A DNA stretch of 64,000 bases, from positions 282,747,341 through 282,811,340 of the forward strand of contig CM060990.1 in the NCBI GenBank assembly GCA_030765065.1, in the 5' to 3' direction. Positions within the stretch are counted from its first letter, which is position 1; each line of letters begins with the position of its first letter. Below are positions 5,500 to 52,859 of the stretch, in pieces. The notes under the pieces were generated by a model that saw only the letters and a list, made by a program, of their open reading frames with translations, did no database searches and had not been told where the DNA came from. The translations under genes and the position numbers were made by a program. This stretch comes from Deroplatys truncata. Its lineage: Eukaryota > Arthropoda > Insecta > Mantodea > Mantidae.

Positions 5500-5533
5500 A
5501 GTAGAATATAATAGGGGGAGCGAGCTCACTTTT

Positions 5534-6640: not shown

Positions 6641-6649
6641 GAAGCACTT

Positions 6650-7150: not shown

Positions 7151-7268
7151 AACACCTAATCTCCCTAACCAGAGATAACCTCGAGTTGTTTTAGTGAAAT
7201 TGATACGTTTTATTCAGGTTTTATTATTATTTGAGAGTCTTAATTGAAAAGTTTTACATCAACATACC

Positions 7269-7274
7269 TTTATT
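7269..7274 (-). terminator. Poly(A) signal of PAL-A left polB
   Basis: AATAAA on the minus strand about 200 nt beyond the polB stop codon. The surrounding block is conserved in all four polB copies, which argues that it is the real 3' end signal. Confidence 0.6.
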
Positions 7275-7479
7275 TTAGTTCGTTGTAGGTGTCTCCCCTT
7301 TTTATCTAGGCTTGAGACTAGCACTAGGATTACTCCTAATGGCAGGGTTACCACCTTCCCTTCCATCTTCTTCTTTCTTCATCGGTCGTCAGCTAGCTGC
7401 ATATACAGCACACGGATAACCTCCATTTTTTTAAGATTGTAGACTCAGGAGAAAATCTTCATATTCGACTTACATTCTC

Positions 7480-9326
7480 TTATGCACTGCTTGTAATGCT
7501 GTAATGTCCATAGGCGTATGTCGTTATACCGTCCTCAGCAATAATTCTTTTATCGTCGGATGGTGTCAATGTAATTTTATTCACTTGTACTGTGGCAAGA
7601 GCATGCTGTCGCGACAGGATCAGATTCATGGGCATTCTGATAATTTCTCTGGTTTTAAGGCAGTCAGTATAGCTCTCGAACGTGACGTACTGCTTAATAA
7701 CACTACGTTTTATACCTTTAATCTTTTTTATCATTGAACCGTCGATATCTAGGGCATACATTTTAGGTCGTAGCCCTACAAAGCGTTGTATGATTTTACT
7801 ATTAGCCTCATCTTTAAATTTCCCAAGTACCTTCTTGTTTAGAGGTGAATAGCATATATGGCTTGTAGGATAATCAGCAGTATCTAGGTGCTCAAGAAAA
7901 CGTAGCTTATCCTGGTACACATCTTCAGTTGTAACACGATGAATGAAGGAATCAGTGTCCATATACATAAGCTTCAGGTTTTCAGCTCCATAATACGGTA
8001 ACAACACATCATAGTGATACCGGTACATTAATGTCTTGGAGATATCCAACACACTCATACCGATGTATATAGGCTTGTTGAAAACGATCTGTGGGGAAGC
8101 CATATGTACAGCAGCTAGATTAGAAGCATATATAGTCTTGTCGATAAACGTTGGCTTTGCAATTAACTTTTCCAGAGTCTTCTCATTTGTCACCAGCCGT
8201 ATATCCATACGATTACGCAGGTTCTCCATAGTTTTTCCGAACATAGCATTGTTGAACAATTTGTAGAGATCCTTCTCAAAATCATTTGCGGCCTGTTGTC
8301 GTAGTCTGTTGTTAAATTCCACATACGTTTTTAACCATCGAGACTGTTGGAATTGTAGCACACGACGGATTTTTGTTAGCCGTAGTCCATGATCAAGAGC
8401 TTGCTTCAACGCCATGTAATGTAGTACATACTTATTTCGAGGTCCTAGATGAGGTATCAGTTTCTTTGTAGGAGAGTCCTTAGGCGTCATACACTCAGGC
8501 AGGAAAGGTAGATCGTTGTGTAGATCGTGAAGTTCTACAGGACACTCGATGTCGACTTCTAATATGTAGCCGTAAGGATCATCTTCTTGTAGTCTTTCTA
8601 AGTCAATTTTTTCAGGCGATACCCACTCAAATCCACCATAAGGGAGAGCGTGACTCATTGCCCACCCATATTGGTTGTTGGCGTCCTCATAGGTAATAAA
8701 TTGGGTTGGTCTCGACGGATCATACTTCTCCATGTAGGTGTTATTAGCCTCTGCATAGCGGTGGGAAACTTGACATAAACCTCCTCTTATACCAGATTCC
8801 ACCATGAGTAATTGATCATAATCCTGTAACAATTCCAGCTGAATTCCAGTGTACAGTAACATGGCATCCCATGTAAGTCCTGGAGAGGTGAAATAATGTG
8901 CTGGGTCGACGTTGTGTGTTTTGAGTGTTTGCTCCCTAAATGTCTCAAAAACATCAGCTAGGAGAAGCACATCAGAGGTTAAGTAGAGGTCGCTGTACTC
9001 GCCCAGGTTTCTGACATTAAACAGCTCCCATACATTTTTAGCATGATCGTAGTCAGCATCACTAATTTCCTCTTCATTTAATTTATTGTACAAGGAGTCC
9101 TTAGGAGGCAAGCAGGTTTCGTTCAAAACATCCCATGAAGTGATGTAATCATAGGGAAATACCCCCTTACGAGTCATCAAGTTCAACTTGTCTTCTCCGA
9201 AGTGTTTCAGTGTTTCAGGATACAATGTCAGATTTTTCACCAGCTTATCCAGGCCTGTACTGAGGAATCGGAAGCTATCCACAAACCGGAGCTTTATATC
9301 TCCAACATACTTGGAGAATGATATAT
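7480..9326 (-). pseudogene. polB: Family B DNA polymerase, C-terminal half (PAL-A left arm)
   Basis: This is the catalytic half of a protein-primed type B DNA polymerase (DNA_pol_B_2 type), cut from its N-terminal half (46788-48601) by the LTR insertion. The 3'-5' exonuclease motif III is visible as YLTSDVLLLADVFETF. Polymerase motif A is EDANNQYGWAM, motif B NNAMFGKTMENL and motif C YMDTDSF with both catalytic Asp. The frame is open from the insertion point to the stop, so this half carries no lesion of its own, unlike the right-arm copy, which has a stop at 56959-56961. Family members copy linear DNA from a terminal protein primer. Here the gene is dead because its promoter and exonuclease domain are 37 kb away. 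Confidence 0.9.
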
Positions 9327-9692
9327 TGTCACGTTATACCGGTAAGGAGCTGGGTCTTGAATTTATAATTACACACCAATTGGTGATATCTTAATATTCG
9401 GTCACATTCTTCTAAATTTATGTAGAATCTTATTCTACTTATTTCTTAGTTTATGATATTTCTGTTAATCTTGTGTGCGTGACCGGACGCTAGCGGTTGC
9501 TTATTTCCTAGGAGTGTTTCTTGGGATTTACAGTGACGTCAACTTCTCCATGTAAACTAATGGAACAATGTTCCAGAAATGAATATGTGTATCCGGGAAA
9601 GTCATGCGCTCTTGCGTAACTCTAGGGCGGCTTCGAACCATATAGGTAATATTAGCTCGGACAATATGGAGACCCCGATAGAGCCGGGCGTC

Positions 9693-9699
9693 TATATAA
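9693..9699 (+). promoter_or_regulatory. LTR TATA box
   Basis: TATATAA within TCTATATAAGC. The same box is kept in the 3' LTR at 46456-46463. It should place the start of genomic RNA near 9725, upstream of the LTR splice donor. Confidence 0.65.
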
Positions 9700-9816
9700 G
9701 CAAGCGAGCGAAGCCGCTCGGGGGTCTTGCTCTTCTTAGTACGCATGGGAATCGTGTACCGCTGGTCACGATTGACATCGACTTGCAACTCCTTCCGGCG
9801 CCACGCACATATCTCC

Positions 9817-9824
9817 AAGGTAAG
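9817..9824 (+). promoter_or_regulatory. LTR splice donor
   Basis: AAG|GTAAGC, close to the metazoan donor consensus, inside the transcribed part of the LTR. It is the natural partner for the acceptors at 16282 (ADAM), 22698 (env1) and 42359/42446 (env2). Confidence 0.6.
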
Positions 9825-10023
9825 CCCAGAAGGGTTTTATTAGTAATAGCTTTTACTGTCTGAAGTCATGTAGGTACAAAGTCATTGCCAAAATATTGTA
9901 AGTCACCATCTCAGGGTTTCCCGTCAAAATATATTCATGCGGTCGGTAGCTTAAGCGAGTGTCTTTGCCTTCTGATCCTGTCCACCTACGCTTCCCGATC
10001 ACACCCAGTGGTGGGTTGTGACA

Positions 10024-10504
10024 TATGGTGGAGGGCCGGCTTTTCATAATACTTTTTTGAGAAGTATCGTTTCGCTCCCGGCCCTTTCAAACCTTCCTAA
10101 TTTGCGGAATGGTAAAGGCTTCCGGCTTTTCTACAGTTTTCTTTAAGTCAAACACCACGCAAAAGCGGCATGGTTCAATCCCATCCTCTTGATGTTGTTT
10201 TTCATCTGGTAATAGCATTTGTAGGCCCGAGTTTACCTGTCGCCGAAGCACGGTTCGCTTCCTTACTTCGGGCAAGTCATTAGTTGCAGCACCCACAGTA
10301 AATACCGCAGTGTTTCATTTTCGGCTTGTCTACTTTTAGATCAGTCATTATTTCACATCATGAGCGTTGATACTGTAACGGTAGGATTGATCTTTTTAAT
10401 TTGGCTAACGATGTGCTGTCTTTGTTATCTCATTTTGCGGATTACAGGACTTGTGAGACTTCCTAACGGTAGTTATTGTAGGGGTTCTCCTCCATCTTAA
10501 GTAT
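10024..10504 (+). other. Untranslated leader of the LTR element
   Basis: Between the 5' LTR and gag. It begins with a possible primer binding site (TGGTGGAGGGCCGGC from 10026). No coding region is recognised. Confidence 0.5.
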
Positions 10505-11874
10505 ATGGAGTTGTTGTCACAGTTTTCAAGTAATAGTCCGGTCAGCACAGAAATACGCAAATTGATCAGGGAACACCAGCAGACATTGCAGGGTAATGTG
10601 CAGACTTATGCTGTTGCTCTCAATGATGTTCAATTGATATCATCTGATCTGGCCGATTTATACCGGTCCATGTCCCGCATCCGAACTCGACACAGTCGTC
10701 GACTACAACAACAACCGCCGATTATTTACTTTCCAGCTCGCCAGCGTAGCCTTAGCGCTGGAGATTTGACTCAAGCTACCCCAATTCCCACATTGGAACC
10801 ATTGTCCCCTTATCCTCGGAAAAATCTATTTCGGACCTCTCTTTGGAATCCGTTCCGATGGCAACTTCTGAGGCATCCGCTGGGCACTCCGCCTTTGACC
10901 AGGCCCCGCAAAAACCCTTAATTACTCATTCGGTGCCCTTTGCGCGCCCCTTCATAGATCCAGGCATTTTTGAGGGTAGGCCCGGTCAGGACGTGACAAC
11001 ATACTTGTATAACTTTGAAACTATAGCTGCTGCCAACGGTTGGGACGATAACTGCAAGAAGCAATATCTGCCGTGTTATTTGCGGGAGGCGGCCGCTAAC
11101 TGCTTCAAGACGTTCACCCATCGACATGCTTCGCATGGGTGGGAAGAACTTAAGGCGGCCTTACGGGCTGCGTTTGTTCCAGCAGCCCAGGAGGAGGTGC
11201 TTGAATGTCGTCTCCGGCAACGAGTCCAAGATCTCGTTGAACCCACGGAGCATTACATCTACGATGTTTTGTCACTTTGTGACCAAGTTAACCCTGCCAT
11301 GAGTGAAAGGGAGCGCATTCGCCATGTTATGCGTGGTTTAAAACCATTCCTGCTTGAACAGGTACTCCCTGCTGACCCACAAACAGTAGGGGATTTAACA
11401 AAATTTGTGCGCCGTATAGAGGCTGCACGATATCTTGCTGGGCAACGGGTAGATCTTCTCCCGTTGCCAAGGCCTCAGGCCGTGGCTCTCGTCAATCAGA
11501 CAGGCGCACCAGATCCCATAACCGATTTGACACAGGAAATTCGTACTCTCCAGCAACAAATGAGAAAATTGCAGATGGACTGTACCCCGCAGCGAGGGAA
11601 GTTTGGTAATCCGGGGCAACGTAACTTCCCAATGGGGCGTGGTCGCACCCGGGGTAATTTCGAACCCCGTAATTTTATTCCTCAACGGAATAATGTCAAT
11701 CAGACACGGAATTTTCAGCCAACGGCTAGAAATACATGGCGCAGGGTCAATTCGGGTGGTCGCACGTCGGACGGTCGTCCCACCTGTTTTTTGTGTAAGA
11801 GACCTGGACACATGGCCCTCAATTGTAGACAACAAGGCACGCACCCAAACGGGCAAGGTACGTCACGGGAATAA
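10505..11874 (+). pseudogene. gag: Gag polyprotein (one frameshift)
   Basis: This is the structural protein of the retroelement particle. The N-terminal 138 codons (10505-10921) are in one frame; the rest (10843-11874) is in another, so one frame change lies near 10850-10920. The retrotransposon-gag region runs from about RPFIDPGIFEGRPGQDV to LKPFLLEQVLPADP. The C-terminus is basic and Gly/Arg/Asn-rich, and contains one CCHC zinc knuckle, CFLCKRPGHMALNC (C-x2-C-x4-H-x4-C, near 11784-11826), which binds RNA. A single knuckle is common in Ty3/gypsy Gag. It ends just before the protease frame, which sits in the -1 frame relative to Gag, suggesting frameshift expression of Pol. Confidence 0.88.
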
Positions 11875-11879
11875 ATTCC

Positions 11880-12554
11880 GTGACGTCCAGCACAGAATCT
11901 ACGCATAATTATGTAACCTCATTCATTCGTCCGGTCAATGTGTTGACCATACCTGGTACATTGTCCAACGAACAATCAGTTAGTATTTTGTTCGACACAG
12001 GGAGTGTCGTCAGTATCATTCAAGAGAAGTTTGTTAACACGCCCACCCAACCCGTCCCTCAAAGCTTGATATTACGCACAGCCGATAATAAATTGTTAAA
12101 TGTCTGTAACATTACGAGACTCTGCTTTCAAGTGGAAGGCGTATCTTTCCAGGAGGATGTTCTAGTAGTTAAGGAGTTCGCGCACGATCTCTTGTTAGGG
12201 ATGGATTTCCTGAATCGGTACAAGGCGATCATTGATTTGCACACTCATACAGTCACACTTAACTTGCCTGACGCATCCACGTTAAAGTTAAAGTGTGGGG
12301 AAAAACACGATTGCCCATTGGCACAGATCACGTTAGAGCCCGACACTGATTCAGACGTATGTCATAAAGCCTGCTGCATAGAAGACATTCGTATTCCCCC
12401 CTTTACATCTATCAATGTACCGGTTAGACTTCCTGCCGAAATCGGTAGCCGCATTCTTCTAGAACCCAAGGATGCCATTATGCAGAAAAAAAAACATTCA
12501 GATGTCCCCTGTATTCTGCATAGCACAGAAAAGATGTGTCATTCCCGTTCATAA
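11880..12554 (+). CDS. pol: Retroviral-type aspartic protease
   Basis: This is the first part of pol. The catalytic aspartate loop is seen as ILFDTGSVVSII (D-T-G, near 11985-12020). The flap/second conserved region, DLLLGMDFLNRY, lies about 80 residues later, the usual spacing for a retropepsin subunit that works as a dimer to cleave Gag and Pol. The frame then runs into a 9-A homopolymer (12485-12493), after which the reverse-transcriptase frame is +1 shifted. Upstream of its first Met the frame overlaps the Gag end. The downstream neighbour is RT. Confidence 0.85.
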   Translation: MTSSTESTHNYVTSFIRPVNVLTIPGTLSNEQSVSILFDTGSVVSIIQEKFVNTPTQPVPQSLILRTADNKLLNVCNITRLCFQVEGVSFQEDVLVVKEFAHDLLLGMDFLNRYKAIIDLHTHTVTLNLPDASTLKLKCGEKHDCPLAQITLEPDTDSDVCHKACCIEDIRIPPFTSINVPVRLPAEIGSRILLEPKDAIMQKKKHSDVPCILHSTEKMCHSRS

Positions 12555-13996
12555 CCCCACGGCCGAGCCAAAAGCAATATTTGCTGGTACTACCTTGGCT
12601 CACGTGCATGAAGTAGCTTTAGTACAGTCTGCCAATTGGTCGTCCGCAGACACAGAAACTGTCGACATTCAGGAAGCAAAGTTTAACCTCAATTCGGAGC
12701 TTACACATATACAAAAGACTCAATTGAGCACCCTTTGGCGGCGATACCGTAACATATTTGCTACAAAATTGCAGGACCTAGGGGCCACTTACATTGGTGA
12801 GTTTAAAATACAAGTAACTGACAGTAAGCCTATTAAACAAAGACCCTATATGGTTTCGCAGGCGCAGAGGGAAATCATTCAAAATCTGGTGGAAGAAATG
12901 CAAGAAGCCGGGATCATCAGGGAATCGCACAGTCCCTGGGCCTCACCTGTGGTCCTGGTAAAGAAAAAAAACGGCGAAATGCGTTTCTGTGTGGATTATC
13001 GCAAATTAAATGCGGTAACGGTAACCTCGGCATACCCTTTGCCCTTAATTGACGATTTACTTAGTTATCTTGGCAATTCCCGGTGGTACTGCACTTTAGA
13101 TCTCTTAAGTGCATATTTTCAGGTACCTATCGAGGAGGATAGCGGGAAGTTACGAGCTTTGTTACGAGTCAAGGTCAATGGGAATTTTCGAGACTTTCGT
13201 TCGGGCTCGTTAACGCGCCGCGTTTGTTTTCTGAGATATCTGGTAAGTTGTTGGGAGAGTTGAAGTATAAGAAAGCCCCGGTATACCTCGACGATATCGT
13301 CGTGTTTGCCTCCTCTTTTTCGGAACTCTTAAGTAATCTGGAGGACGTTTTTTGCAAATTGCAGATGCATAATTTTAAACTCAAACCAGAAAAGTGTTTT
13401 TTCGGCATGTCTCGCATTAAGTTGCTCGGTTTTGAAGTTTCGGTCAAAGGTATTGAACCTGATTCGGACAAGATCCGAGCCATCATGAATTTGCCGACCC
13501 CCAAAAACGTACGTGATGTACGGAGGGTGTTAGGTCTATTTAGTTTTTTAGGCGTTTTGTTCCTAACTTTGCATCTATTGCAAAACCTTTACATGACCTA
13601 ACTCGGAAAAATCAGGATTTCGAATGGACTAAGACTCAGCAGGAGTCGTTTGAAGAGCTCAAGAAATTGCTAACCACACCGCCTGTTTTGGCACACTATA
13701 GACCAGGGGCCTATACCGAAATACACACGGACGCCTGTTCCATTGGCATAGGGTCTGCCTTGCTTCAACGAATACAGGGCGAGCTTCACCCTATTGCTTA
13801 TTGCTCGCGCTCCCTGAACAAACACGAGAGAAATTATAGCATCTCGGAATTGGAGCTTTTGGCTATTGTGTACGGCTTAACGCATTTTCGACCATACATA
13901 TATGGTTACCCGTTACTATGGTTAGTGATCACCATGCATTGTGTCATTTACGCAATCTCAAAGACCTCACGGGTAGATTGGCCCGTTGGGCATTGA
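12472..13996 (+). pseudogene. pol: Reverse transcriptase and RNase H (several frameshifts)
   Basis: A Ty3/gypsy reverse transcriptase spread over three frames. The first block (12472 to about 13150) has WASPVVLVKKKNGEMRFCVD and DYRKLNAVTVTSAYPLPLID, the fingers region, then TLDLLSAYFQVPI, the palm motif with the first catalytic Asp. A single-base change near 13150 breaks the frame. The second block (13224-13601) contains the catalytic box YLDD. After another shift near 13550, RNase H follows (13667-13996) with the TDACSIGIGSALLQ and SELELLAIVYGL motifs. A further shift occurs near 13920. The domains are complete but the gene is dead in this assembly. It would copy the element's RNA into DNA. 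Confidence 0.9.
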
Positions 13997-15396
13997 AATT
14001 GCAGGAGTATGAATACTCTATACATTACAAATCAGGTGCAAAACACCTGGACGCAGATGCACTGTCCCGGTTCCCCGTGGACGAACCAAAGGCACAAATA
14101 GTTGAACAAACAGATGAGATAATCACTTGTTTACTATCTCCTGTAAAAGTAGCCCAAAAGCAGCTTGATGACCCTCAATTACAGCCCTTAATGGGAGAAG
14201 TAAACCACCCGGGGACAGGTGTACCTAAGATACATCGGCAAGCCGCATCATATATACTGAAGTCTGGTGTTTTATACCGTAAGAATGCGGGAGCCTCTGG
14301 TCCCTTACATTTGTTGGTCATCCCTGAGTCCCTGAAACAGGAAGTCCTATTTTCCTGCCACGATGATCCTCTTTCTGGCCATCTGGGATTTTCGAAATCG
14401 TTCCATAAAATTCATTCCCGCTACTATTGGGTGGGAATGAAAAAAGATATTGAAAAATATGTTAAGGGATGCCCGAGCTGTCAGACTCGTAAGGGCCCTA
14501 AAAACGTGCGGCCCGCGGGCCTGTTACAACCCCTCCCAACTACCACGGTTGGATCCATGTGGGGAATCGATCTTTTGGGTCCGCTAAAGCGCTCCAGGTC
14601 TGGGAACACCATGATCTGTGTTGCGACGGACTATGGTTCTTGTTGGGTTGAAGCAAGAAGCATGCCTAGGGGTTCCATCCAGCATGTTTCCAAATTTATT
14701 TTGGAAAATATTATATGCCGACATGGAGCCCCTGCTACCTTATTGAGCGACAGGGGTGCTGTGTTTCTTAGCGACGTAACCCAACATCTTCTCAAATCCA
14801 TGGGGGTGAAGCCTACTTTCACCTCCGCTTACCATCCCAATTGTAACGGCTTAACCGAGAGGGCTAACCAGACGATTATTAATATGATTTCCCAGTACAC
14901 TTCAACTAACCAAACAGACTGGGACGTTTGCTTATCCCATATTATTTTTGCATACAATACTAGTAAGCAACAGTCCACAGGGATGACCCCCTTCTTCCTT
15001 ATGTATGGACGTCATCCTACCCTACCGGAAGAGGTACAATTGAAACATACGTCCGATAACCTTTTCGTTCAACAAACCCAACAACGGATTAAGGAAGCCC
15101 GACACATTGCTCAGGAAAACATCCGACGCCAACAGGTTAAGGATAAACGTATATTTGACAGGAAACGGCGTAATGTGAAGTTTCGGCCTGGGCAATTGGT
15201 CAAAGTATTTACCCCAACTCGAAAAAAAGGAAAATCCACCAAACTGCTGCATAGATTCTACGGACCGTATGAGGTAGTTCATCAAACTTCTCCAGTAAAT
15301 TATCGTGTTCGGAAAGGCACGGGTATCAAAACAAGGGAGTCGATCGTGCATGTTGCACGGTTGTACCCATATTATCGACCCTTTAAACGAAGTTGA
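13918..15396 (+). CDS. pol: RNase H tail and integrase
   Basis: A continuous 492-codon frame. It begins with the end of RNase H (SDHHAL, then HLDADALSRFP). The integrase follows. Its HHCC zinc domain shows His residues in GHLGFSKSFHK and cysteines in KGCPSCQTRK. The catalytic core has the three acidic sites in WGIDLLGPL, LLSDRG and LTERANQT, a D,D-35-E arrangement. The C-terminus has the GPY/F module (RFYGPYEVVHQTSPVNYRV) and ends YPYYRPFKRS; no chromodomain is seen. It would insert the cDNA into host DNA, here with a 4-bp duplication. This is the best-preserved part of pol. Confidence 0.93.
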   Translation: MVSDHHALCHLRNLKDLTGRLARWALKLQEYEYSIHYKSGAKHLDADALSRFPVDEPKAQIVEQTDEIITCLLSPVKVAQKQLDDPQLQPLMGEVNHPGTGVPKIHRQAASYILKSGVLYRKNAGASGPLHLLVIPESLKQEVLFSCHDDPLSGHLGFSKSFHKIHSRYYWVGMKKDIEKYVKGCPSCQTRKGPKNVRPAGLLQPLPTTTVGSMWGIDLLGPLKRSRSGNTMICVATDYGSCWVEARSMPRGSIQHVSKFILENIICRHGAPATLLSDRGAVFLSDVTQHLLKSMGVKPTFTSAYHPNCNGLTERANQTIINMISQYTSTNQTDWDVCLSHIIFAYNTSKQQSTGMTPFFLMYGRHPTLPEEVQLKHTSDNLFVQQTQQRIKEARHIAQENIRRQQVKDKRIFDRKRRNVKFRPGQLVKVFTPTRKKGKSTKLLHRFYGPYEVVHQTSPVNYRVRKGTGIKTRESIVHVARLYPYYRPFKRS

Positions 15397-16282
15397 AATG
15401 TGATGCATTGAAGAAACGTCAATAACCACAACACTGTCCATGTTGGACGCCTAAGATAAATTTACCTATGCCTATATATGTGTCTATCTATATAAATAGT
15501 TTAACTGATTGCATGAATTATAACATTTGCTTATTTGTATATTACCTATAATGCTAAGTTTTTTTATATTCCAATATCAAGAATGGGTGTGCAGAACGGA
15601 CATACCCACCTCCTATGAGTATATAAGTTTAAATATTGAAATTGAAAGGATATATGTATATACTTATGATATTGTTTGCTGTGGTATAAATATGTATAGT
15701 AATCATAGCAATTTTAAAATCCATGCGTATGCAAGGAATCTTACATTTAAAATAATCGAGGAAGTAGTACTAATGAGCAATATGTATTTTCTATGTGTAC
15801 TCCTATATTAATCCAGATAATTAGATTACTCACCATTTCAAACTAGCCGTATTGATTGACTCGATTATGTTAACGGCCTATACTATTGGCTGTGAGTGCA
15901 GTTCATGCTAGTATGAGAGCATGACTGACGAGAATAGTTTTTCGGAATGACCTGCGGGGGCATGTAAATATATATCAATAAACTTAGTTGTTGCGACTGT
16001 ATTAACACAATTAAAAACCATGTTACACCATGCTGACATTTTACAGTTTCGAACTACATTGTTGCGGATGTTAGTTGGGCACTCACTAATACATACTAGG
16101 AAAATACATTTAGGGGTGCCACCGGATGGTAGTTACGTAGTTAAAGGAACATGTCGCTTGAATTGATTATACATGACATCCGTAGAGCATAGTGTCGCAA
16201 ATAAGTATAATAAATTCAATCGCAGAATGTCAAGTGTATGTCTTGAATTCACCGGTTTGTTTTGTTTACATTCTTTGCACAG
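15397..16282 (+). other. AT-rich spacer ending in a splice acceptor
   Basis: No gene recognised. The segment ends with a strong 3' splice site (pyrimidine-rich TTTACATTCTTTGCACAG, AG at 16281-16282) about 50 nt upstream of the ADAM start codon. Confidence 0.5.
16260..16282 (+). promoter_or_regulatory. Splice acceptor for the ADAM mRNA
   Basis: A T-rich tract followed by GCACAG, at the expected place for joining the LTR leader (donor at 9819) to the ADAM-like reading frame, which starts at 16332. Confidence 0.5.
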
Positions 16283-16331
16283 AACGCACTCAACAGGGAT
16301 TGTCTACGATCCGCGACTTTGTTGTTAAGGA

Positions 16332-18584
16332 ATGCTGAGAGGAAGGATGTGTCAAGTACAAACGATAGGGCGATCAACCCTTCCACTTAAGAAGGTTAGC
16401 ATTTTTATTGGCCTTTGCTTTTGTTATTTTTTTTCTTGCCCTTGTTCAACACTTTATATTCCGGGACATAATAACGGAATAGGGCACCATCACCCTGACA
16501 TTCAGTCACATGACAACTCACATACACAGCTGCCTAATTTTACTTTTGTATATCATGCACACGGTAGAAATTATACGGTAGACCTCCGCCTGAATGATGA
16601 AATAGTCCCCACTAATTTTTCTGAAAAATACATGAAGGATAATCAATTCGTGAGTACCGGAACCCCCGAGGTTTGTCAATATATATGAAAAATCCGTGGT
16701 GTATCTAATTCTTGGGCTGCAGTATCCGTCTGCAACGATCTGAGAGGGATTATTTATGATGGTAATGCTGTTGTACACTTACGCCAACCGAATTTCCACA
16801 GTGCAGTATTAAATGGTAGTCCCGACATTTTATTTGTCCAAATATCTAACACATATATTTCCAGACAACACCGCACATGTGCACTTTCAATTCACCCCAG
16901 GAACAATTACCCTAGATCACACCGGCAAAATCAGATACCCTATTATACACACCGAAGTCCAAGTAACATACAAATACTTGATAAGCATAATGACATAACC
17001 CGCCTGGTACAACTATTTTTTGTCGTGGATCACTCACTTTATCGGGAATTAATATTAAAGGGACGCAGTGTCACTCAACATTGCTTAAATCTAGCTAACC
17101 TTGTTAGCGCTTTGTATGCCCCATTGAATATATCAATCGCATTAGTGGGTGTACTGGTTTGGACAGATTACAATCAAATATATATTACTGATGATAGTCG
17201 TCAGGTTTTAGATGATGTTTTACGTTATCGTAGAGAATTTTTGATTCAAGCTAATCCTCATGATTATGCGCAGTTATTAACTGTAACTAAATTCCAACGC
17301 GGAGTTGTTGGTGAGGCATACCCGTATTCACTATGTACGTATGAACATTCTGGCGCAATCATATCTGATGGCGTTGAGAATGAAGAATTAGTAGCCGTCA
17401 CAATCGCACATGAACTGGGTCATTCGTTCGGAATGCATCATGACAACAACTGTTGTCAATGTGAACGCTGTTGTATAATGGCGGGATCGTTAGGCTCTGA
17501 AATCCCTACCCAGTGGAGTCCCTGCAACGTACAGGAATTAGGTGACTCTTTAAGTCATCATATTGATTCTTGCCTTCACAATAAACCATTTAACCTATAT
17601 TCAGGCCCGAGTTGTGGAAATGGTTTTGTAGAAGCAGGGGAACAATGCGACAGTAAAAACCATTGCTGTCATTCAGATACGTGCATGTTACATCCGAATG
17701 CCTCTTGTGCTACAGGCAAATGTTGTGATATTAACACATGCCTTCCAAAAGGTAGAAGCACAATTTGTCGCAAAGCTATTGATGAATGCGACTTGCCTGA
17801 ATACTGTGATGGTATATCAGAGTACTGTCCAGAGGATATCTATAAGATGGATGGTAGTAGTTGTAAAAGAGGTCAAGCATTTTGTTATCATGGTTCATGT
17901 ACGACACATTCAGATCAATGTCAAAAATTGTGGGGAAACACTTCAAAAAGCATGGATATGGAATGCTATCAAAATAATGATCGCGGTAGTCTTAATGGAA
18001 ATTGTGGATATGATTATTTAACCAATCGATATACTAGATGCAAGATAGAAGATTTATATTGTGGAATATTACACTGTAACAATAACCAAGTAAACTTCAG
18101 TTTGGAGTGCATAATTATGCTAGAGTAGGGACAATGCTCAAACATAGCACTTATGAAAGATGTACCACTGTTATGGTAGATGTAGGCCCGCAGGTACTTC
18201 AACCTGGATTAGTACCGAATGGCGCTAAATGTGGAAAACATAAAGTGTGCATAAATCAGACTTGTATCCCCGTTAAATCGATTCGACACCATGGATGCTA
18301 TTGCAACGGTAACGGCGTATGTACTAATAAGAACCAATGTCAATGTTATAAGGGTTATGCCCCTCCATTTTGTAATATAACTACGACGAGGGATAACAAA
18401 AATAATCACCCACCTATTCGTCCACCCACCTTTATAATATTTGTACTGGTTTTTTATCTCTGTTGGTGATATTTTCTATATTTTCCACCGTATTCCTGAT
18501 TATAAATCACCTAAAAGGTATACATCTGTCACGTTCGACTACCACCCCCTTACCCCTCCCTCATTGGATGAGGATATTCACTAA
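16332..18584 (+). pseudogene. ADAM-type metalloprotease/disintegrin inside the LTR element
   Basis: One frame runs from 16332 to 18128 with a single TGA (16686-16688). A frameshift near 18105 then leads to 18107-18469, and another near 18465 to a short tail ending at 18584. The domain order is that of a whole ADAM. A hydrophobic signal segment lies at residues ~22-40 and an M12B prodomain at ~70-220. The reprolysin domain starts at VVDHSLY and has the zinc site HELGHSFGMHHD (His360, 364, 370) and the Met-turn CIMAG. The disintegrin domain runs from SCGNGFVEAGEQCD to DECDLPEYCDG. A Cys-rich domain, an EGF-like repeat (CYCNGNGVCTNKNQCQCYKG) and a membrane segment (FIIFVLVFYLCW) follow. ADAMs are membrane sheddases and adhesion proteins. 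No intron interrupts it, so it probably came from an mRNA. I know of no LTR element with such a gene. Confidence 0.9.
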
Positions 18585-18603
18585 TTGTTACAGACGGTTA
18601 AGG

Positions 18604-18909
18604 CATTTGGTGAGTATATGTCACTATATATATATATCTATATATATTTAAAAATATTCCTAATAAAAACCAAAATATTAATAATAAGATCCTAAGTTCC
18701 CAAATTACTCCCACTATCCGCAAGGAGAATTCCATTGTACATACAAGACAACTACCCATATTAATTCAACATAAGTGTTGTTATGTCAACCAACGTATAT
18801 AGTGCTAAAGTATACTAAGTTCCCATATAATTTTATTTCTGCATATTAGAAAACTGAATATCTGCTAATGTGTAAATTGCAATATGTTTTTTTCTCTTTC
18901 TTCCCTTAG
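18604..18909 (+). other. Possible intron after the ADAM frame
   Basis: TTTG|GTGAGT (GT at 18610-18611) is a good donor. TTTTTTTCTCTTTCTTCCCTTAG (AG at 18908-18909) is a good acceptor 300 nt later. They may form an intron just beyond the ADAM stop, either one kept from the donor gene or part of the element's alternative splicing. What follows 18909 is not recognisable as a continuation of ADAM. Confidence 0.35.
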
Positions 18910-21150
18910 TTATAAAATTATAAACACTTTGTTTCACAAAACAACCAGTGACTTGACGTCAAGATTTCTTTTTTATATAATTCTTTTCATGTATATTTTC
19001 GAGCATTATCCTATGTGCTCTACTTCTTGGATGCGTCGTATTTCGTGTACTAATTCCCTTCGGCCGACGCCCTCACATACAAATTCTAATACTGATATTT
19101 ATTATGTTGATAACAATCAGCATCATAACTACAATCATAACAATAATTATAATACTGCTTACCACATTCATACTAATATTATGCGAAGGACAGAGTGTAA
19201 CAATCATTATAGCAGTAGCGGCAGATGACGAAGTGAAACAAGCATAACGAGGAGTCGGAAACGCGAAGGTATAAACTAAATAATAGTTTCTTAAGTGATA
19301 TAAAATTAATTATTCTTGTAAACACTTTAAACATAACACATTATACGACATTATCATCCTTTGTTGTTTGAATTCAAAGTATACATATGGCAATCAACGA
19401 TAATATACGCTGATACGTAAGATGACTTCCACTAAGTTTATGCGACTTCAACACCTTTTTACTATTATTATTTCTAACCCCAAGTTCCGTTTGGAAAATA
19501 TAAATAAATCCTTGTAGTGAACGTCACCGTTAATTTTAACAAAGCACTTTGTGAGCACCTTTATTGGCACGAAGCGTTTGTGAACGTAGGAAAATATAAG
19601 AAATACGAGCATGAGATAGCTTAAGGGTTGCGTAAACTGCGATCCTTAAAACTTTTTCGCACCAAGTGAAAATAATTTTCTGAAATCACTAGATAAGTGT
19701 CCAATAGTAAAGAATTAACTTATTAACGAAAATAAGGATTCTCATACCAGATATAGTAAGTTTTTTTCCTCTCCTCTTTTTCCTTTTCAGGAAATACGCT
19801 TCACTTGGAAATAGTGACCAAATGTATTTCGTATAATAGATACACATACTTAAGCAAATCATAATGTCATGTGTATACATTCCCAATTCATGCAACTTTT
19901 TAAAGCGCTGCATAATTCATGTCTAATATTTATAGTTTTGGTGATGACATGATTCACTTTTAACAAAAATTACAAGGCATTATCACTGCTTTATGGTCCG
20001 GCCACATGATTTGGCATTCGACTTTGCCCAAAGTAATTTTATATGCATGGCCTTTTATGTTAATTTAGATTTCTGCAATGCATGAAAAATTATGTACCCC
20101 CACGATATTAAAATCTATCTACGTGTTCATATATCACATATAAATATTTTTTGTACAATTGTTATTACTTTAGATGTTATTTTCAGTCATGTTGTTTGTT
20201 ATCTATCCTCATATCTCGCTCTATGCTTCTTAATTCAGACCATACATGGAATTTGTACTGTTGTCTAACTTCAATTCGGCTCGATTTATTAATCGGACAT
20301 GATAGTACTTCTGTTATTTCATGTCTGGATTTTACGGATATATTTTTGTAACATTTTGCTCCTCACTGTATTCGTCGCACTTTGGTATGCCTCCTTCTAT
20401 GATTAAAGCACTTTGTTTAATAATGTTAAGTTTGTACTCACCGGTAAGAAGATATCCCATAGCTGGTATAGATATGTCCGCCTTCACTTACTTAGTCCAA
20501 CTGCTGCTCGCACTTTGATTGCAGGCCTGACCGGACGGCTGTTATCTGCAGCGGTTCTCCAACTTTTCCGGTTCTGTCATTTCAGAATTGGTTCGTTTAT
20601 TTTCTGTGACTCTTAATCGTACAATTTGGCCACATTACTAAATATTTATACATCTCTTCTAATGACCCTATATTTCTGAGACCATCCTTTTTAATGAATA
20701 AATTGTATCAGATTACAAGCTTTAATGGTAGTACATTAAACTAAATAACCACTTCACAAATTTTATTGGATTTTTTTTCTTCTTCTTCTTATAAGTACCC
20801 TTGCAGCTGAAAAGCGCTACTACTGAACTTTTTATGCGCTCCGGCAAAAGCCAGTTTTCTCCCTTCTGTTCTATTTGTCTACTGAAATTGTTTACTGCAT
20901 TTCAGCTGCACACTTTATCTTAAACCCCAGATCTCAGTGCAAGGGTTGGGCCTTTTCCTCATCACCCCTGTTACCCCCTATATTCCACACTTCCCCGTTT
21001 TCAATTTCAAAAGGATAGATGTACCTGGAATATGATTTTGGAAGGGACGGCAATCTTCAATACAACTCCTTCATTCTTTCGTCCACCTACACATTTTTAT
21101 TCATTTTTTTTCTCCCTCTCCTTTCATATCTTATTTTTAAGCTAAGTTCT
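18910..21150. other. Long AT-rich spacer of the LTR element
   Basis: About 2.2 kb without a coding region I can support. Short frames (for example 18884-19228, Asn/His-rich) look like chance. From about 20760 onward the plus strand becomes strongly pyrimidine-rich, with many T/C tracts, as in the spacer after env2. Confidence 0.5.
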
Positions 21151-22099: not shown

Positions 22100-22680
22100 T
22101 TCTGCCCTATTACTCGGCTCTTACCTGCATTTATATGAGGATGTCACCTAGGAAGCGTAACCACAATGTTACGGATGCAACGTCGGTGCATTTGCACTTA
22201 GTTGGAATTTTTTTTCTCTTTCTCTCTCACTCTTTTCTCCTCTTGTCTCATCAGTACATTCTTCTTAGTTGTAATTTTGTCAAAACTAATTCATATAGTC
22301 CCTATTTAATATACTTTTTCTCCCTATTATTAATCCTCCTCGCCACTTTTATGCATTGACGCTGTCCCCATGTTATATATTTTTTTGGTCACCAGGACCT
22401 ATTATTTGGTGTTATGTCACGTTACCTCGTGCCTCTGAGTCATGTGTATATTAGTCCGGGATTCGATTCCCGTATAATTTATTTCTTTTTTTTATTTCTT
22501 AACTCTGCCTGGTATTAGCCTTGTTTAACGTGTAGAGATATATCACATGCGGCACGAACTACTGCCTTTGCGATTTCCCTTCCTAATTTTCCCTCCTTTT
22601 CACCATCTTTCCCGTTCTTTCATTTTCCTACCTTCCGCTCCTGTTTTTCCTTTTATTTACGGCGATAGCGCTAAGTTTAT
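22100..22680. other. Pyrimidine-rich spacer before env1
   Basis: A T/C-rich plus strand without a gene. A T-arm-like CGGGATTCGATTCCCG occurs near 22457 and may be a tRNA-derived scrap. Confidence 0.5.
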
Positions 22681-22698
22681 TATGTACTTTTCTTGCAG
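22680..22698 (+). promoter_or_regulatory. Splice acceptor for env1
   Basis: The text TATGTACTTTTCTTGCAG lies directly before the ATG at 22699, so the mature env mRNA would begin its coding region at the exon junction. Errantivirus env genes are known to be expressed from spliced RNA. Confidence 0.65.
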
Positions 22699-23654
22699 AT
22701 GTACCTCCTACATGCCAGCCTTCCCTTGTTCGTCGCTCTGATTTCCGCCGTTACGATGGACGATTTACCTGATAGGCAGGTTCGGATCGCTGCAGGAGCG
22801 GCTATGAGGCGATTGCCGGATTCCATCAATTATCAGGCCTCTATTCCACTAGCCTTTAAAGTGCTACGGGAAAGGGTTGATATTGCACAGCTGACGACAC
22901 CGCGCTCGCTGGGGATACGCTCCCCTCCGGCCGCCCTTATTAGATTGGAGGATGACATTGCATATGTCGGCAGTACTCTTGATAGAGAACTGAGTAAGTT
23001 ATATGATGCCATCTTCAATTTTACTAACAAAGAAACTGCCCGCTCCAAACGTGGCATTACTTTTCTTGGTGACATATTACATTTTTGCTGTGACGTAGCC
23101 ACCGCTAACCAAATTAATGCTTTGGCGGCTACTGACAAACAGCTCTTGGAACACTTTAAGCAAATGGAGCGCGTAATTAGTCAAGATCATACCTGGTTTT
23201 CAACCACAAAGGATAAATTAAACGATTATAGTGAAAAGATTGCTCAATCTTTTGATAAAATTAATGATAGATTATCCTTTGTGATGGCTACTGCCAATCA
23301 GAGTTTTAGTTCTTTACGACGCAGGTCGACGCTGTATTTGATCATCAGTATTTATCCTTTTGGGAGATTTTACAAAATACTCAAAGATCCATTCATACCA
23401 TACTTTTCCTTAAGCAAATGGACGCGATGATGCCATGTAGGAATCATTTGTTTCCCTTATCTATTGTCTCAGCTGATATCTTTGAGCAGGAATTAAACTC
23501 TTTAGAACGTAGCTTACGTAACACTTTCTTTGAACTTGCAATTGATGTGTCCGATATACATCGATATTTTGAATTAGAAATTACTTCATGCTCCTTTAGC
23601 AAGACGTATATAATGGTCACCATCAAAATTCCAGTTAAACAACAAGGCTTGGAA
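22699..23654 (+). pseudogene. env: Envelope gene 1, 5' part (split by PAL-B)
   Basis: Baculovirus-F/errantivirus-type class I fusion envelope, N-terminal part. A signal peptide (MYLLHASLPLFVALISAV) starts at the ATG just after the splice acceptor; this start is preferred to the upstream TTG. The surface part is short (about 118 residues) and ends in a furin-type site RSKR (23041-23052). A glycine-led fusion-peptide region, GITFLGDILHFC, follows, then a long heptad-like helix region. Cleavage would expose the fusion peptide for membrane entry. A one-base frame change lies near 23325; the reading continues in another frame to the insertion at 23654. The other part is at 40829-41915. The gene is inactive here. 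Confidence 0.88.
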
Positions 23655-23685
23655 GTAGGATATATAGGAGAGAGCTGGCACAGTT

Positions 23686-24600
23686 TTTTGCGTTTATATG
23701 GGAAAGGATAGGGAAAACGAAGGTAGATGCTAGGTTGAGAGAGTCTTCAAGGAGGAAAATGCGTTTATATGGGAGGGATAGGGAATACCAGGGCTGATGC
23801 TAGGCTAATCAGATGCTAAAGGAGGGAGGGATATGCTTTATATGAGACAGATAGGGAATACGTGGAGAGGTGCTAGGCTAGACAGAGGCTGAGTAATGTA
23901 TGGTTTATATGAGCGGTATAGGAAAACGATGAGAGGTGTTAGACTAGACAAGGCTTGAAACGTAGTGCATGGTTTATATGAGAGATATAGGAAAACGAGG
24001 AAAGGTGTTAGGCTAGGCAGAAGTCGAGGAGTAGAGTAAGGTTTATATGAGAAGTATAGGAAAACGAGGAGAGGTATTAGGTTAGGAGAATTGAGTTTGT
24101 GTTTATAAGGAGAGACGAGAAAACGGAGAGAGATCCTATGCTAGGATAGACAGGTGTTAAAGTTAGGTTAGATAGGAAACCAAGGAGTGATACTCAGCTA
24201 GAGGGGGGGGTAGGAGGGAATGAGCTTTTGAGAGGTAGGGGATACGGGGAGTGGTGTTAGACTAGACAGGGCTTGAAACGTAGGGCATGGTTTATATGTA
24301 TGAGAAGTATAGGAACAGGAAGAGGGGTGCTAGGCTAGACAGAGGTTGAGGAGTAGAGTATAGTTTATATGAGAGGTATAGGAAAACGAGGAGAGGAGTT
24401 AGACTAGACAGAGGTCGAGGAGCAGAGTATGGTTTATGTGAGAGTCATAGGTAAACGAGAGAGGCGTTAGGCTAGACAGAGCTAGAGGAGTAGAGTATGG
24501 TTTATATGAGAGGTATAGGAACAGGAGGAGAGGTGTTAGGCTAGACAGGTAGTGTAGCAGTAGGAATATGGACTTATATACAGGAGAGATAGGGAATAGG
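23686..24600. repeat. PAL-B left terminal minisatellite
   Basis: Degenerate 60-65-bp units with TTTATATGAGAGGTATAGGAAAACGAGG-like text cut into shorter variants and a GCTAGACAG block. Mirror copy at about 39880-40790. Same unit type as PAL-A. Confidence 0.9.
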
Positions 24601-24689
24601 AGGTGCTAGACTTGAAAGCGACTTTAGAAGTGAACATAGTGGAAAACTGTTTCATGTCAATGTTCTAGACATGCCCATCACGTAACCTA

Positions 24690-24975
24690 TTCAGGGAAAA
24701 GGTGACTCGTTCAGGGGAAAAAGGTGACTGCTCAGGGAAAAAGGAGACCCACAAAGGGAAAAAGTTGACTAGCAAAGGGAAAAACGTAACCAGCAAAGGG
24801 AAAAAGGCGACCAGCAAAGGGAAAAATGTGACCAGCAAAGGGAAAAAGGCGACATGCAACGGGAAAAAGGTGACCAGTAAAGGGGAAAATGTCACCAGCA
24901 AAGGGAAAAAGGCGACCACCAAAGGGAAAAAGGTGAGCCATAAAGGGAAAAAGGTGACCTGCAACGGGAAAAGCT
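24690..24975. repeat. PAL-B left 21-bp tandem array
   Basis: About 13 units of 21 bp built on CAAAGGGAAAAAGGTGACCA. The Lys/Gly-rich open frames here follow the 7-codon repeat and are not genes. Mirror copy at 39499-39784. Confidence 0.95.
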
Positions 24976-24979
24976 AACC

Positions 24980-26285
24980 CACTAACACTAACAGGTAAGT
25001 AATTCAGGTAGTATTGCAAGAGGCGGACTGGATCATAGCAGTGTATGATTTCACAGGTAATTCAGCTAGTATCGTATGCATTTAGGCTAATTCGTCTAGT
25101 AACACAGGATAGATTCCAGATGCTAACTGCATCATGGCTCTGCATGATTTCACAGATAATTCAGCTAGTATCGTAGGTGTTTAGAGTAATTAAGCAAGTA
25201 TCACAGGAGGCTAGATTCCAGGGTTGGGTATAGCATAGTTTCGTATTTCAGAGGGTATCGTAGGTATTTAGGATAATTCAAGTAACATAGGTGTTTAGAG
25301 TAATTAAGCAAGCATTACAGGAGGGTAGGTTCCAGGGGTTGGTTATAACCTAGCTTCGTATTTCACAGATAGTTCAGGTAATATCGTAAGTATTTGAGGT
25401 AATCGACAGAGCTTCACAGATATTATTGATAATTTCGATCAGAGATTTGTATCACAGCTATTTAAGGTAAATGCAGATGATTCAGGTTGTATCAATGGTA
25501 TTTGAGTCATTTTAACAGGTAATTCTGATAGTATCACAGGTGCTCGTGCTAATTTAGAGCAGGAATTCGTATCAGAGCTAGTTAAGGTAATTTCACATGA
25601 TTCGGGTAGTATCACAGGTATTTAAATCATTTTCATAGCCAATTCAGCTAGTATCGTGAGCATTTAAGCTAATTCAGCTAGTATCACAGGAGGCTAGATT
25701 CCAGAGGCTAACTGCATCATAGCTATGCATGATTTCACAGCTAATTCAGCTAGTATCGTAGGTATTTAGGCTAATTCAGGTAGTATCACAGGAGGATAGA
25801 TTCCAGGGTTGGGTATAGCATAGTTTCATATTTCAAGGTAATTCAGAGGGTATCGTAGGTATTTAGGATAATTCAAGTAACATAGATGCTTAGAGTAATT
25901 AAGCAAGCATTACAGGAGGGTAGGTTCCAGGGGTTGGTTATAGCCTAGTTTCGTATTTTACAGATAGTTCAGGTAATATCATAAGTATTTGGATAATCAG
26001 CATAGTTTCACAGATGCTCGTAATAATTTCGATCAGAGATTTTGTATCACGGCTATTTAAGGTAAATGCAGCTGATTCAGGTTGTATCAATGGTATTTGA
26101 GTCATTTTAATAGGCAATTCTGATAGTATCACAGGTGCTCGTACTAATTTAGAGCAGGAATTCGTATCTGAGCTATTTAATGTAATTTCACACGATTCGG
26201 GTAGTATCACAGGTATTTAAGTCATTTTAACAGGCAATTCAACTAGTATCACAGGTACTCATGGTAATATAGAGAGTAATTCGAT
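24980..26285. repeat. PAL-B left degenerate repeat region
   Basis: About 1.3 kb made of variants of AATTCAGCTAGTATCGTAGG and TATTTAGGCTAATTCA, with a longer period visible where GAGGCTAGATTCCAG recurs. No gene. Mirror copy at about 38190-39490. Confidence 0.85.
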
Positions 26286-26436
26286 TATAAAACTTTTCTC
26301 ATCCAACGTTACAACAATTTATATACTTTTTTCTAAATCTTACAAACTTATTATATTTTAAGCACTTATTGTACGATGCGGAGAGGGATAAACTGCATAT
26401 TGGTTCACAAATTGAAAAGCTTTACGTCAACATACC

Positions 26437-26442
26437 TTTATT
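26437..26442 (-). terminator. Poly(A) signal of PAL-B left polB
   Basis: AATAAA on the minus strand about 200 nt past the final stop, in the block conserved between PAL-A and PAL-B. Confidence 0.6.
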
Positions 26443-26645
26443 TTAGTTCGTTATAGATGTCTCTCCCCTTTTATCTAGGCTTGAGAGTAGCACTTGGATT
26501 GCTCCTAATGGCAGGGTTACCACCTTCCCTTCCATCTTCTTCTTTCTTCATCAGGCGTCAGCTATCTGCATATACAGCACACAGATACCTTCTTTTTTAA
26601 GATTGTAGACTCACTAGAAAATCTTTATCTTTAACTTACATTCTT

Positions 26646-29600
26646 TTAAGCACTGTTTGTAATGGCGTAATGTCCATACGCATATGTTGTTATCCCGTCC
26701 TCAGCAATAATTCTTTTATCATCAAACGGAGTCAATGCAATTTTATTCACTTGTACTGTAGCAAGGGCATGCTTTCGTGATAGGATCAGATTCATAGGTG
26801 TTCTGATGATTTCACTGGTTTTAAGACAGTCTGTATAGCTGTCAAACGAAATGTACTGCTTAATAGCGCTACGTTTTATACCTTTAATCTTTTTTATCAT
26901 TGACCCTTGAATATCTAAGGCATACATCTTAGGACGTAGTCCAACAAAGCGTAGGATGATTTTGCTATTAGCCTCATCTTAATATTTTCCCAATACCTTC
27001 TTGTTCTGAGTAGAATAACATATATGGTAGGCAGGGTAATCAGCTGTATCGAGATGTTCAAGAAAACGTAGCTTGTCCTGGTACACATCTTCAGTTGTTA
27101 CACGATGAATGAACGAATCAGTGTCCATATACATAAGCTTCAGGTTTTCAGCTCCATAATAAGGCAACAAAACGTCGTAATGATAGTTATACATTAATGT
27201 CTTGGAGATGTCCAACACACTCATACCAATGTATATAGGCTTGTTGAATACAATCTGACGAGAGGCCATATGTACAGCAGCTAGATTGTCAGCATATATC
27301 GTCCTGTCGATAAACGTAGGCTTGGCGATCAGCTTCTCTAGAGTTTTTTCATTGGTCACCAGTCGTATATCCATACGATTACGCAGGTTCTCCATAGTTT
27401 TTCCAAACATAGCGTTGTTAAAGAGTTTGTAGAGATCCTTCTCGAAATCATTTGCAGCTTGTTGTCGTAGCCTGTTGTTAAATTCCACATAAGGTTTCAA
27501 CCACTGAGACTGTCGGAATTGTAGCACACGATGGATTTTTGTTAGTCGTAGTCCATGACTAAGAGCTTGCTTCAAAGCCATGTAATGCACTACATACTTC
27601 TTTCGAGGTCCAAGATGAGGTATCAGTTTCTTTGTAGATGATTCCAATGGTTTCATACACTCTGGCAGGAAAGGTAGATCGTTGTGTAGATCGTGAAGTT
27701 CTGCAGGATACTCGATGTCGACTTCTAATATGTACCCATGAGGATCATCTTCTTGTAGTGTTTCTAAGTTGATTTCTTCAGGTGACACCCACTGAAATCC
27801 ACCAAAAGGAAGGGCGTGACTCATTGCCCACCCATATTGGTTATTTGCGTCCTCGTATGTGATAAATTGGGTTGGTCTCGTCGGATCAAACTTCTCCATA
27901 TAAGTGTTATTAGCCTCAGCATACCGATGAGAAACTTGGCATAAACCTCCTCTTATACCTGATTCCACCATGAGTAGTTGATCATAATCTTGTAACAGTT
28001 CCAGCTTAATTCCAGTATACAGCAACATGGCGTCCCATGTAAGACCTGGAGAGGTAAAATAATGGGCAGGATCAACTTTGTGTGTTTTAAGGGTTTGCTC
28101 TCTGAACGTCTCAAAGACATCAGCTAGAAGAAGTACATCCGAAGTTAAGTAGAGATCGCTGTACTCTCCCAGGTTTCTCACATTAAACAGCTCCCATACA
28201 TTTCTAGCATGATCGTAGTCAGCATCAGTAATTTCTTCTTCATTTAATCTATTGTAGAAGGAGTCCTTAGGAGGCAAGCAGGTCTCGTTCAAGGCATCCC
28301 ATGACGTAACAAAATCATATGGAAATACACCCTTACGGGTCATCAACTTCAATTTGTCTTCTCCAAAGTACTTTAGTGTTTCAGGATACGAGGTTAGATT
28401 TTTTACCAACTTATCCAAGCTTGTACTGAGGAATCGGAAGCTATCCACAAATCGAAGCTTTATATCTCCTACATACTTGGTGAATGAGATATAGCTTTCT
28501 TCAGAGTTAGGAATTACCTCCACACGTTCACTTGTACAACCCAGCTCCTTAACAATGAAATGAGAGTCATATCCGCTAAGGTTATGCATGAAGACTGGTA
28601 TATATTTAGGTGTTTTACAGGCTAAATTACATTCATTATGAAGACTTCCACGATATTCACCGCTGATGTGATCATGGTCGCGTACTTTATAGTTCTCTTC
28701 TGTAAAGGGTTTTCTACACAAGTAGCATGTCGTAGAAGACTCGAAATCCTTTTGCTGTTGATCCGTAAGTTTCAGAGGCTTAGCAGATTTGTATATATTA
28801 CCAATCATTTTTGCAAGAGATGTAAGGTACAGCATAAACGTCTGAGCAGCATCAGCACCACGATACACATAGGGATGCTTAGGAAGATCAGTTTCGAGAT
28901 GTTCAACCCTGGATGTAGGTTTCACGTAAACACAGAAGCTCATTGGTGTGTGCTCTTGATAAGGTGTTGTATAGGAAGTTTCAGGATTGGGTGTACACGT
29001 ATGGCATGGAGTGAGAATACTCTCAAAATCCGCATAGATGACATAAGGTACTTTCAGCATCCTCTCAACATTTTTAAACTGAACAATTGATTTCTCCTTG
29101 GTAGGCATAACTACCCTTGCAACACCATGTTGAATACAGACGGCTGCATGTTCTTGTAGTTTTTCCTGTCCACTTCGTCCATATCGATCATCAAAATGTG
29201 TAAAGCAGCGCTTACAAGTATAAACCCGTCCATTATGGTTAGTTTTCTGGCGTCGAACGAGTTTCTCAAAATTCTTTATATACACGTAGTGATGTTTTCC
29301 ACTGCTGTCATTCAATAGTAGCAGGTCGCGATGTTCAGGTAGTTCAATATCAGCAACCTTTATCGGATACACTTCATGCTTCTCATCCAGCCCGAAAACG
29401 TTAATGGATATCTTGTTAAACTTCTCAAATTTAGGTATTTGAGAAAGTGGAGTAGGGTAGGAAACACAGCTGAAGTCGTACTTGTCTTGAAGTTGTTTGT
29501 ATTTGTTCACACGCTGTACATTCTCCCCTATGAATTTAGCTAATACAGAGTACATGAAACATTTCTCGTCGCTAAAGTTCTGGATGTTTATACATGCTTT

Positions 29601-30299: not shown

Positions 30300-30457
30300 C
30301 TTTATTCTTGATGTAATAACGTATTAATCACTGATCAATGAAATGTAGACCTCTTCACCTTGACACCACTTTAGAAAGCTGATTATTCTTGGAGAGAACA
30401 CGATGTTAACACCTCAAGACTAATTAGCACAATGAAGTCCAATGCCCTAGATCACCA

Positions 30458-30465
30458 TATTTATA
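30458..30465 (-). promoter_or_regulatory. Core promoter of PAL-B left polB
   Basis: TATAAATA on the minus strand, with a TCATTG initiator-like site about 31 nt downstream and the polB ATG about 160 nt downstream. Mirror image of 34009-34016. Confidence 0.7.
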
Positions 30466-39490: not shown

Positions 39491-39498
39491 AGTGGGTT

Positions 39499-52855: not shown

Positions 52856-52859
52856 CTCA

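Follow-up and report, generated by a model that had tools for sequence, protein, structure and literature searches.

Does an insect LTR retroelement carry an ADAM as one of its own genes? The question is raised by the window (the whole 64,000-nucleotide stretch of Deroplatys truncata DNA analyzed here), in which positions 16332-18584 of the plus strand form an ADAM coding region, with metalloprotease, disintegrin, cysteine-rich and EGF-like parts, between the integrase and the envelope of an LTR element. Our preferred answer, to which we assign a probability of roughly 0.9, is that an env-bearing element of the Ty3/gypsy type captured one host ADAM mRNA in the distant past, and that the gene has since been retained as a spliced accessory gene.

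An ADAM coding region inside a large LTR element

The element is bounded by plus-strand LTRs at 9327-10023 and 46103-46787 (697 and 685 bp, TGTCAC...GTGACA), which are identical at 669 of 684 aligned bases and are flanked, in the one copy examined, by a 4-bp target-site duplication read directly from the sequence (ATAT, 9323-9326 and 46788-46791). A putative primer binding site, TGGTGGAGGGCCGG (10026-10039), lies behind the 5' LTR, and a GGGGG run (46095-46099) precedes the 3' LTR. Open reading frames and Pfam matches place gag (10756-11874; PF03732, 2.4e-10) ahead of a pol region (11829-15396) consisting of protease (11829-12554; PF08284, 8.4e-11), reverse transcriptase broken into two frames (12463-13601; PF00078, 6.7e-8 and 2.9e-14), RNase H (13544-13996; PF17919, 4.4e-35) and integrase (13840-15396; PF17921 and PF00665). 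Pol, too, is thus interrupted by frame changes in the window. An Rfam search returned nothing at gathering scores. The span of 9327-46787 is far larger than the sequence-only reading had described and includes a nested 17.2-kb palindrome (23654-40822); with this insert subtracted, the element measures ~20 kb. Its LTR was found at at least 40 places in the genome (40 scored of 249 candidates).

The nested palindrome splits the first envelope gene, carries a 6-bp duplication (CTTGGA) and is missing from the corresponding empty site in a related copy (L040). Its arms are 100% alike, each with a frame of 1114 codons that we read as PolB-like on our own interpretation of the translations; the only Pfam match on the palindromes is Endonuclease_7. 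A second palindrome of this kind encloses the LTR element from outside (5498-9326 with 46788-60287; arms 98-99% alike). The termini, AGTAGGATATAT and AGTAGAATATAA, and the duplication are Polinton-like, yet these elements are almost wholly inverted repeat. Of 28,816 candidates, 41 matches were scored, and 13 further loci among them have a minus/plus PolB pair; the palindromes therefore belong to a family of high copy number and do not result from an assembly artefact.

The ADAM lies on the same strand as pol, between the integrase and the envelope pieces (22675-23430 and 40899-44476), as had been proposed. The gene had also been called complete. Its domain anatomy bears this out, with propeptide, Reprolysin, Disintegrin and ADAM_CR following one another on the plus strand, but the copy itself is broken by one stop (16686-16688) and about two frame changes (~18086-18128 and ~18406-18469), so the gene is not complete in the window. 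The N-terminal part (16332-16688), a hydrophobic lead and a propeptide just under the Pfam cut-off (PF01562; E 2.5e-4, 22 bits against 23.7), ends at this stop. Within the main open frame (16689-18128, 479 aa) lie the metalloprotease domain (17004-17588; PF01421 Reprolysin, 4e-50), whose zinc site HELGHSFGMHHD (17409-17444) is followed by a CIM Met-turn, then the disintegrin domain (17634-17837; 1.4e-14), with six residues fewer than two insect host ADAMs, and the cysteine-rich domain (17850-18095; PF08516, 2.5e-19). The remainder (18086-18651), comprising the end of the cysteine-rich domain, the EGF-like part and a hydrophobic tail, runs in shifted frames. Positions 18086-18466 match L011, L020 and other copies by tblastn. 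Of the signal-to-membrane order described earlier, Pfam thus recovers the propeptide, zinc site, disintegrin and cysteine-rich parts, while the EGF-like part and hydrophobic tail are readable by eye and had no Pfam match. The propeptide model likewise falls just under its cut-off in L011 and is not among the matches for L020.

By sequence, the best solved relative is vascular apoptosis-inducing protein 1 (2ero; E 2.4e-63). A predicted structure (mean pLDDT 68.9; within the catalytic domain, ten-residue means between 67 and 96) also returned 2ero first in Foldseek, and further down the ranking came the ADAM33 and ADAM8 catalytic domains.

The same gene order in diverged families

Of 169 candidates in the 4.29-Gb genome assembly (G000), 150 were scored, giving 124 Reprolysin matches; 20 of the strongest loci were fetched for inspection. 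A relative of the window integrase lies upstream on the same strand at 18 of these 20; the exceptions are L018, with no integrase in the stretch and a gap of about 2 kb inside the ADAM, and L010, with only a distant integrase (26-28%). Seen from the other side, the integrase search (83 of 14,416 candidates scored) gave 84 matches. All 84 were compared with the Reprolysin matches ranked 1-70 by strength out of the 124, and at 20 of them the same strand carries a Reprolysin match 1.3-1.8 kb downstream.

The ADAM-bearing copies fall into four families: A (the window and L010-L016; ADAM at 93-95%), B (L019-L027; about 60%), C (L017, L018 and L028) and E (L009). Uninterrupted ADAM frames, measured from stop to stop, reach 713 codons in family A, and six B copies have frames of 774-776 codons. 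At all 20 loci an open frame contains the zinc motif HELGHSxGMxHD, and the Met-turn is retained in families A, B and E. A membrane segment followed by a proline-rich tail is, by eye, clear in B and E; the open frames of family A, to which the window belongs, have no clear counterpart of either and end in a hydrophobic stretch of 14 residues. L030 is a further family A copy, in which the end of a PolB palindrome lies within the ADAM (at about 3060), the second such insertion in elements of this family.

The full order of pol, ADAM, env1 and env2 was read in the window and in one further copy per family, in A (L040 adjoining L011) and in B (L039 adjoining L023). The family B LTR (816 bp, 99.1% identical between pieces of two copies) has no blastn match to the family A LTR. 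The two families nevertheless share a near-identical primer site, TGGTGGAGGCGCCGG behind the B LTR. Other elements with the same order, which the sequence-only reading had proposed to seek, are therefore present in this genome in two families with unlike LTRs. Searches of phage records and of IMG/VR viral contigs (one of the two by means of two peptide patterns) gave no ADAM relative.

Among the family A copies, L011 and L013-L016 share one and the same sequence over 8995 bp, from which L012 departs at 3 places; the six are therefore treated as no more than one or two copies. Four of the identical copies lie on short contigs (C781, C797, C803 and C811) and match the copy at 303.6 Mb of C7 (L011) over the full 8995 bp; they may be assembly duplicates, or else stem from a very recent burst. 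An assembly artefact was considered for the multiplicity and rejected, the nine family B copies lying on six large contigs and being mostly ~1% apart (L026 ~4%). Between ADAM and env1 sits a short unit, single in the window (20377-20517) and repeated in several tandem copies in L011-L016 (L011, 8498-9282). Separately, about a dozen near-equal partial matches to positions 18-100 of the Reprolysin profile, in frames of ~90 aa on many contigs, perhaps represent an older repeat with an ADAM fragment.

Origin of the ADAM and its absence from relatives

In a 43-row ADAM tree, the eight element rows form one clade (100/100), placed within a larger group (100/99) in which every named row is an insect and some database rows are unnamed; the stem of the clade is 2.02. 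Six disintegrin residues of P0001 and P0003 are missing from L020, L011 and L009, and this stretch is present in the ADAMs of Cryptotermes and Hetaerina. A host ADAM gene on contig C8 has one exon 94% identical to the Cryptotermes protein over 65 residues and, ~4.6 kb away, a neighboring exon at 88% over 60 residues. By this similarity the host probably stands close to termites and cockroaches. The intron between them, the one host intron tested, is missing from the element ADAM copies, in agreement with the earlier statement that the gene has no introns. Another locus fetched as a host ADAM (L038) held only a weak match. The missing intron and the single clade among insect ADAMs support the proposed capture through mRNA; the gene also lies within a host clade, between LTRs and in several copies, as expected of a retroviral capture of host mRNA.

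Relatives of the element also exist without the gene. No ADAM was found in the 2.9-4.2 kb after the integrase at five loci of family X (L029, L033, L034, L035 and L037), nor in the roughly 3 kb after it in families G (L032) and H (L031 and L036). The integrase tree places G and H outside A, X and B/C/E, and X between A and B/C/E with moderate support (93/94; 83/90). Because X, an ADAM-less sister family, exists, the gene is dispensable and not essential; because of its position, either X lost the ADAM or the gene moved by recombination. The latter course, passage of the ADAM between A and B/C/E with no loss in X, draws on that placement and on a low bootstrap count (3% of 200 trees separate the ADAM-bearing families from the rest by a single branch), while the starred branches still permit one clade. 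Against it stands the divergence of A and B, which is large in both genes (55-61% identity in ADAM, 72-76% in the integrase region) and therefore suggests long co-residence; we regard recombination as possible but doubtful. Under single capture, an env-bearing insect element of the Ty3/gypsy type would have taken up the host mRNA once, before A split from B/C/E, and would have retained it between pol and env.

Envelope genes and the possible role of the protease

Two envelope genes follow the ADAM. In the window, the first is read as an N-terminal part with the cleavage-site sequence RSKR/G (22675-23430) and a C-terminal part with a hydrophobic segment (40899-41915), on either side of the nested palindrome. 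Its uninterrupted frame in L040 matches the baculovirus F family above the cut-off (PF12259 Baculo_F, 2.9e-9); the same model gave no match to the other four of the five members of the envelope alignment (A2) or to the four env pieces of the window. Two relatives of env1 were found in the protein database, at 30 and 32% identity, and the envelope profile gave chance-level matches only, mostly coiled coils, against the PDB. The second gene, env2 (42397-44476, in two frames here; 2706-4526 in L039), is a paralogue of env1 at about 23-29% identity (29% for 43310-44473 against the env1 region of L039 and L040) and lacks an RxKR site at the aligned place. The label errantivirus given to the element is partly supported, by the F-type envelope of L040, the LTRs and the 4-bp duplication; for pol, the 120 public relatives listed out of 553 are 36-50% identical, the named ones being mostly from beetles, ticks and spiders.

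The translations predict a zinc metalloprotease of the secretory route, probably held in the membrane, with disintegrin and cysteine-rich domains. It is likely to be a working protease, since zinc site and Met-turn are preserved, as are most of the cysteines and domains. Particle release, receptor shedding and cell adhesion were all suggested earlier as what such a protein might do for the element. We tentatively favor, at somewhat under even odds, a role in spread: by cleaving surface or matrix proteins of the host on infected cells, the protease would aid passage between tissues, for example from soma to germ line. It is also conceivable, if less likely than not, that the element is an infectious insect retrovirus whose ADAM, as both protease and adhesion protein, acts together with two envelopes as one of three surface proteins, for entry or for crossing tissue barriers toward the germ line.

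Two other targets deserve mention. Shedding is the known role of the ADAM family, and with its zinc site intact the protein might clear infected cells of their entry receptor, or of haemocyte surface proteins and in this way modulate immunity; we hold this to be a doubtful alternative. An action on the element's own particle, through processing or shedding of Env or through attachment by the disintegrin and cysteine-rich domains, would suit the presence of two env genes behind the ADAM in families A and B and the retention of the adhesion domains. It seems unlikely to us: the disintegrin domain is shortened, ADAM-less families persist, and env1 has its own RxKR/G site, so the ADAM is not needed for env1 cleavage.

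Splicing and selection

Locus L010 preserves a splice junction of a family A element at the DNA level. Positions 1-493 of its LTR, ending in CTCCAAG, are joined directly to window position 16283. The window reads CTCCAAG/GTAAG at the donor within the LTR (9819-9820) and TTTGCACAG/AACGCACTC at the acceptor (16282-16283; TTTGCACAG/AACGC at the junction), and because a GT donor and an AG acceptor stand at the exact break points, a GT-AG intron has been removed. The acceptor noted earlier just upstream of the ADAM is hence real, and precisely this AG, 49 bp before the ADAM start codon, was used. A CAG/A acceptor stands at the aligned place in one B copy (L020) and one C copy (L017), and the B LTR holds a donor-like AAG/GTAAG. 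In the preferred reading, the ADAM would be expressed as its own spliced message, from a donor in the LTR leader to an acceptor just ahead of its start.

How L010 itself arose is a separate matter. Its partial LTR is preceded by 727 bp from the 3' end of the element (window 45377-46103), and a full LTR ~13 kb beyond is 99.8% like it over 496 bp; this reading combines two stretches, L010 and L041, that lie 6 kb apart. Together, L010 3075-4279 and L041 1335-2056 resemble a reverse-transcription product in which a spliced ADAM message is joined, through R, to the 3' end of a second element RNA. A spliced RNA could not start standard reverse transcription, its primer site having been located behind the donor; we infer that the strand under synthesis, on reaching the 5' end of the spliced message, jumped through R to the 3' end of a different RNA. 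However the locus formed, it shows LTR-to-ADAM splicing in family A.

Comparison of the ADAM across element copies, as earlier proposed, reveals purifying selection between families. Nei-Gojobori dN/dS is 0.05-0.27 in all between-family comparisons, including 0.208 for B-E (563 codons, dS 0.76) and 0.156 for A-B (666 codons), the latter rough because dS is about 2 (2.0), near saturation; YN00 gave no value for most of the distant pairs, A-B ones included. Ten near-copy comparisons gave 0.06-0.79, with few changes each.

These data weigh on the idea that the ADAM is a passenger, captured and copied along to no use of the element. Most integrase matches (64 of 84) indeed have no Reprolysin match close downstream, and among nine of these that were fetched, eight (five X, three G/H) have no ADAM in the stretch and the ninth is the insert-cut L030. 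A passenger would nonetheless have kept its frame, catalytic site and most cysteines through protein differences of ~39-45% at a dN/dS of 0.05-0.27, and its acceptor CAG in three families, which makes this very improbable. A processed retrogene that landed by chance in one LTR element would share the missing host intron, but an ADAM confined to one copy and marked by a separate target duplication and poly(A) is not what the genome holds: the same position, strand and upstream integrase recur in many copies and diverged families (18 of 20 loci; 20 of 84 integrases), the gene is spliced from the element's own LTR and purifying selection acts between families, leaving this explanation a negligible chance.

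Comparison with known systems

The retention of a host surface protease by such an element, until copies differ by ~40% in protein, parallels the way in which complex retroviruses keep accessory genes. The presence of ADAM-bearing and ADAM-less families in one genome makes a direct test of the effect of an accessory surface protease possible. It also carries a warning for annotation: many ADAM-like matches in such a genome are element genes and not host paralogues.

Literature searches for an ADAM in a retroelement gave none among the matches listed, some of which were the top of longer lists, in keeping with the earlier remark that no described errantivirus with such a gene is known. An ADAM as a retroelement accessory gene thus appears, from these searches, to be undescribed, although gene capture and spliced env messages in insect endogenous retroviruses are known. 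Gene capture by retroelements is reported for Burro and other giant Gypsy-like elements, which resemble the present element in extra host-like domains and env homology; Burro's extras include BIR, BCL2, MATH and ankyrin domains in a polyprotein, and section 7 of the paper that describes them names no metalloprotease (PMC6431247).

The closest host proteins are the insect ADAM group with Cryptotermes B7P43_G12631 and the host exons on C8, which share domain order, zinc site and cysteine pattern at 43-53% identity. Unlike them, the element ADAM lacks a host intron, has the six-residue disintegrin gap and a stem of 2.02, and is multicopy and LTR-bounded. Baculovirus enhancins and the granulovirus MMP are virus-borne metalloproteases that work outside the cell, an idea the element ADAM would share; they belong to other protease families and to DNA viruses.

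The nearest retroelements are errantiviruses such as gypsy and ZAM, with their Ty3/gypsy-type gag-pol, baculovirus-F-related envelope, LTRs and spliced subgenomic message; F-type envelopes and spliced env messages are described for insect endogenous retroviruses (PMC12992720). The element differs from them in its ADAM gene and second env paralogue, in a splice donor that lies inside the LTR and in its length, ~20 kb once the nested insert is subtracted. The usual description of insect endogenous retroviruses comprises gag, pol and env, and a spliced ADAM under selection goes beyond this plan.
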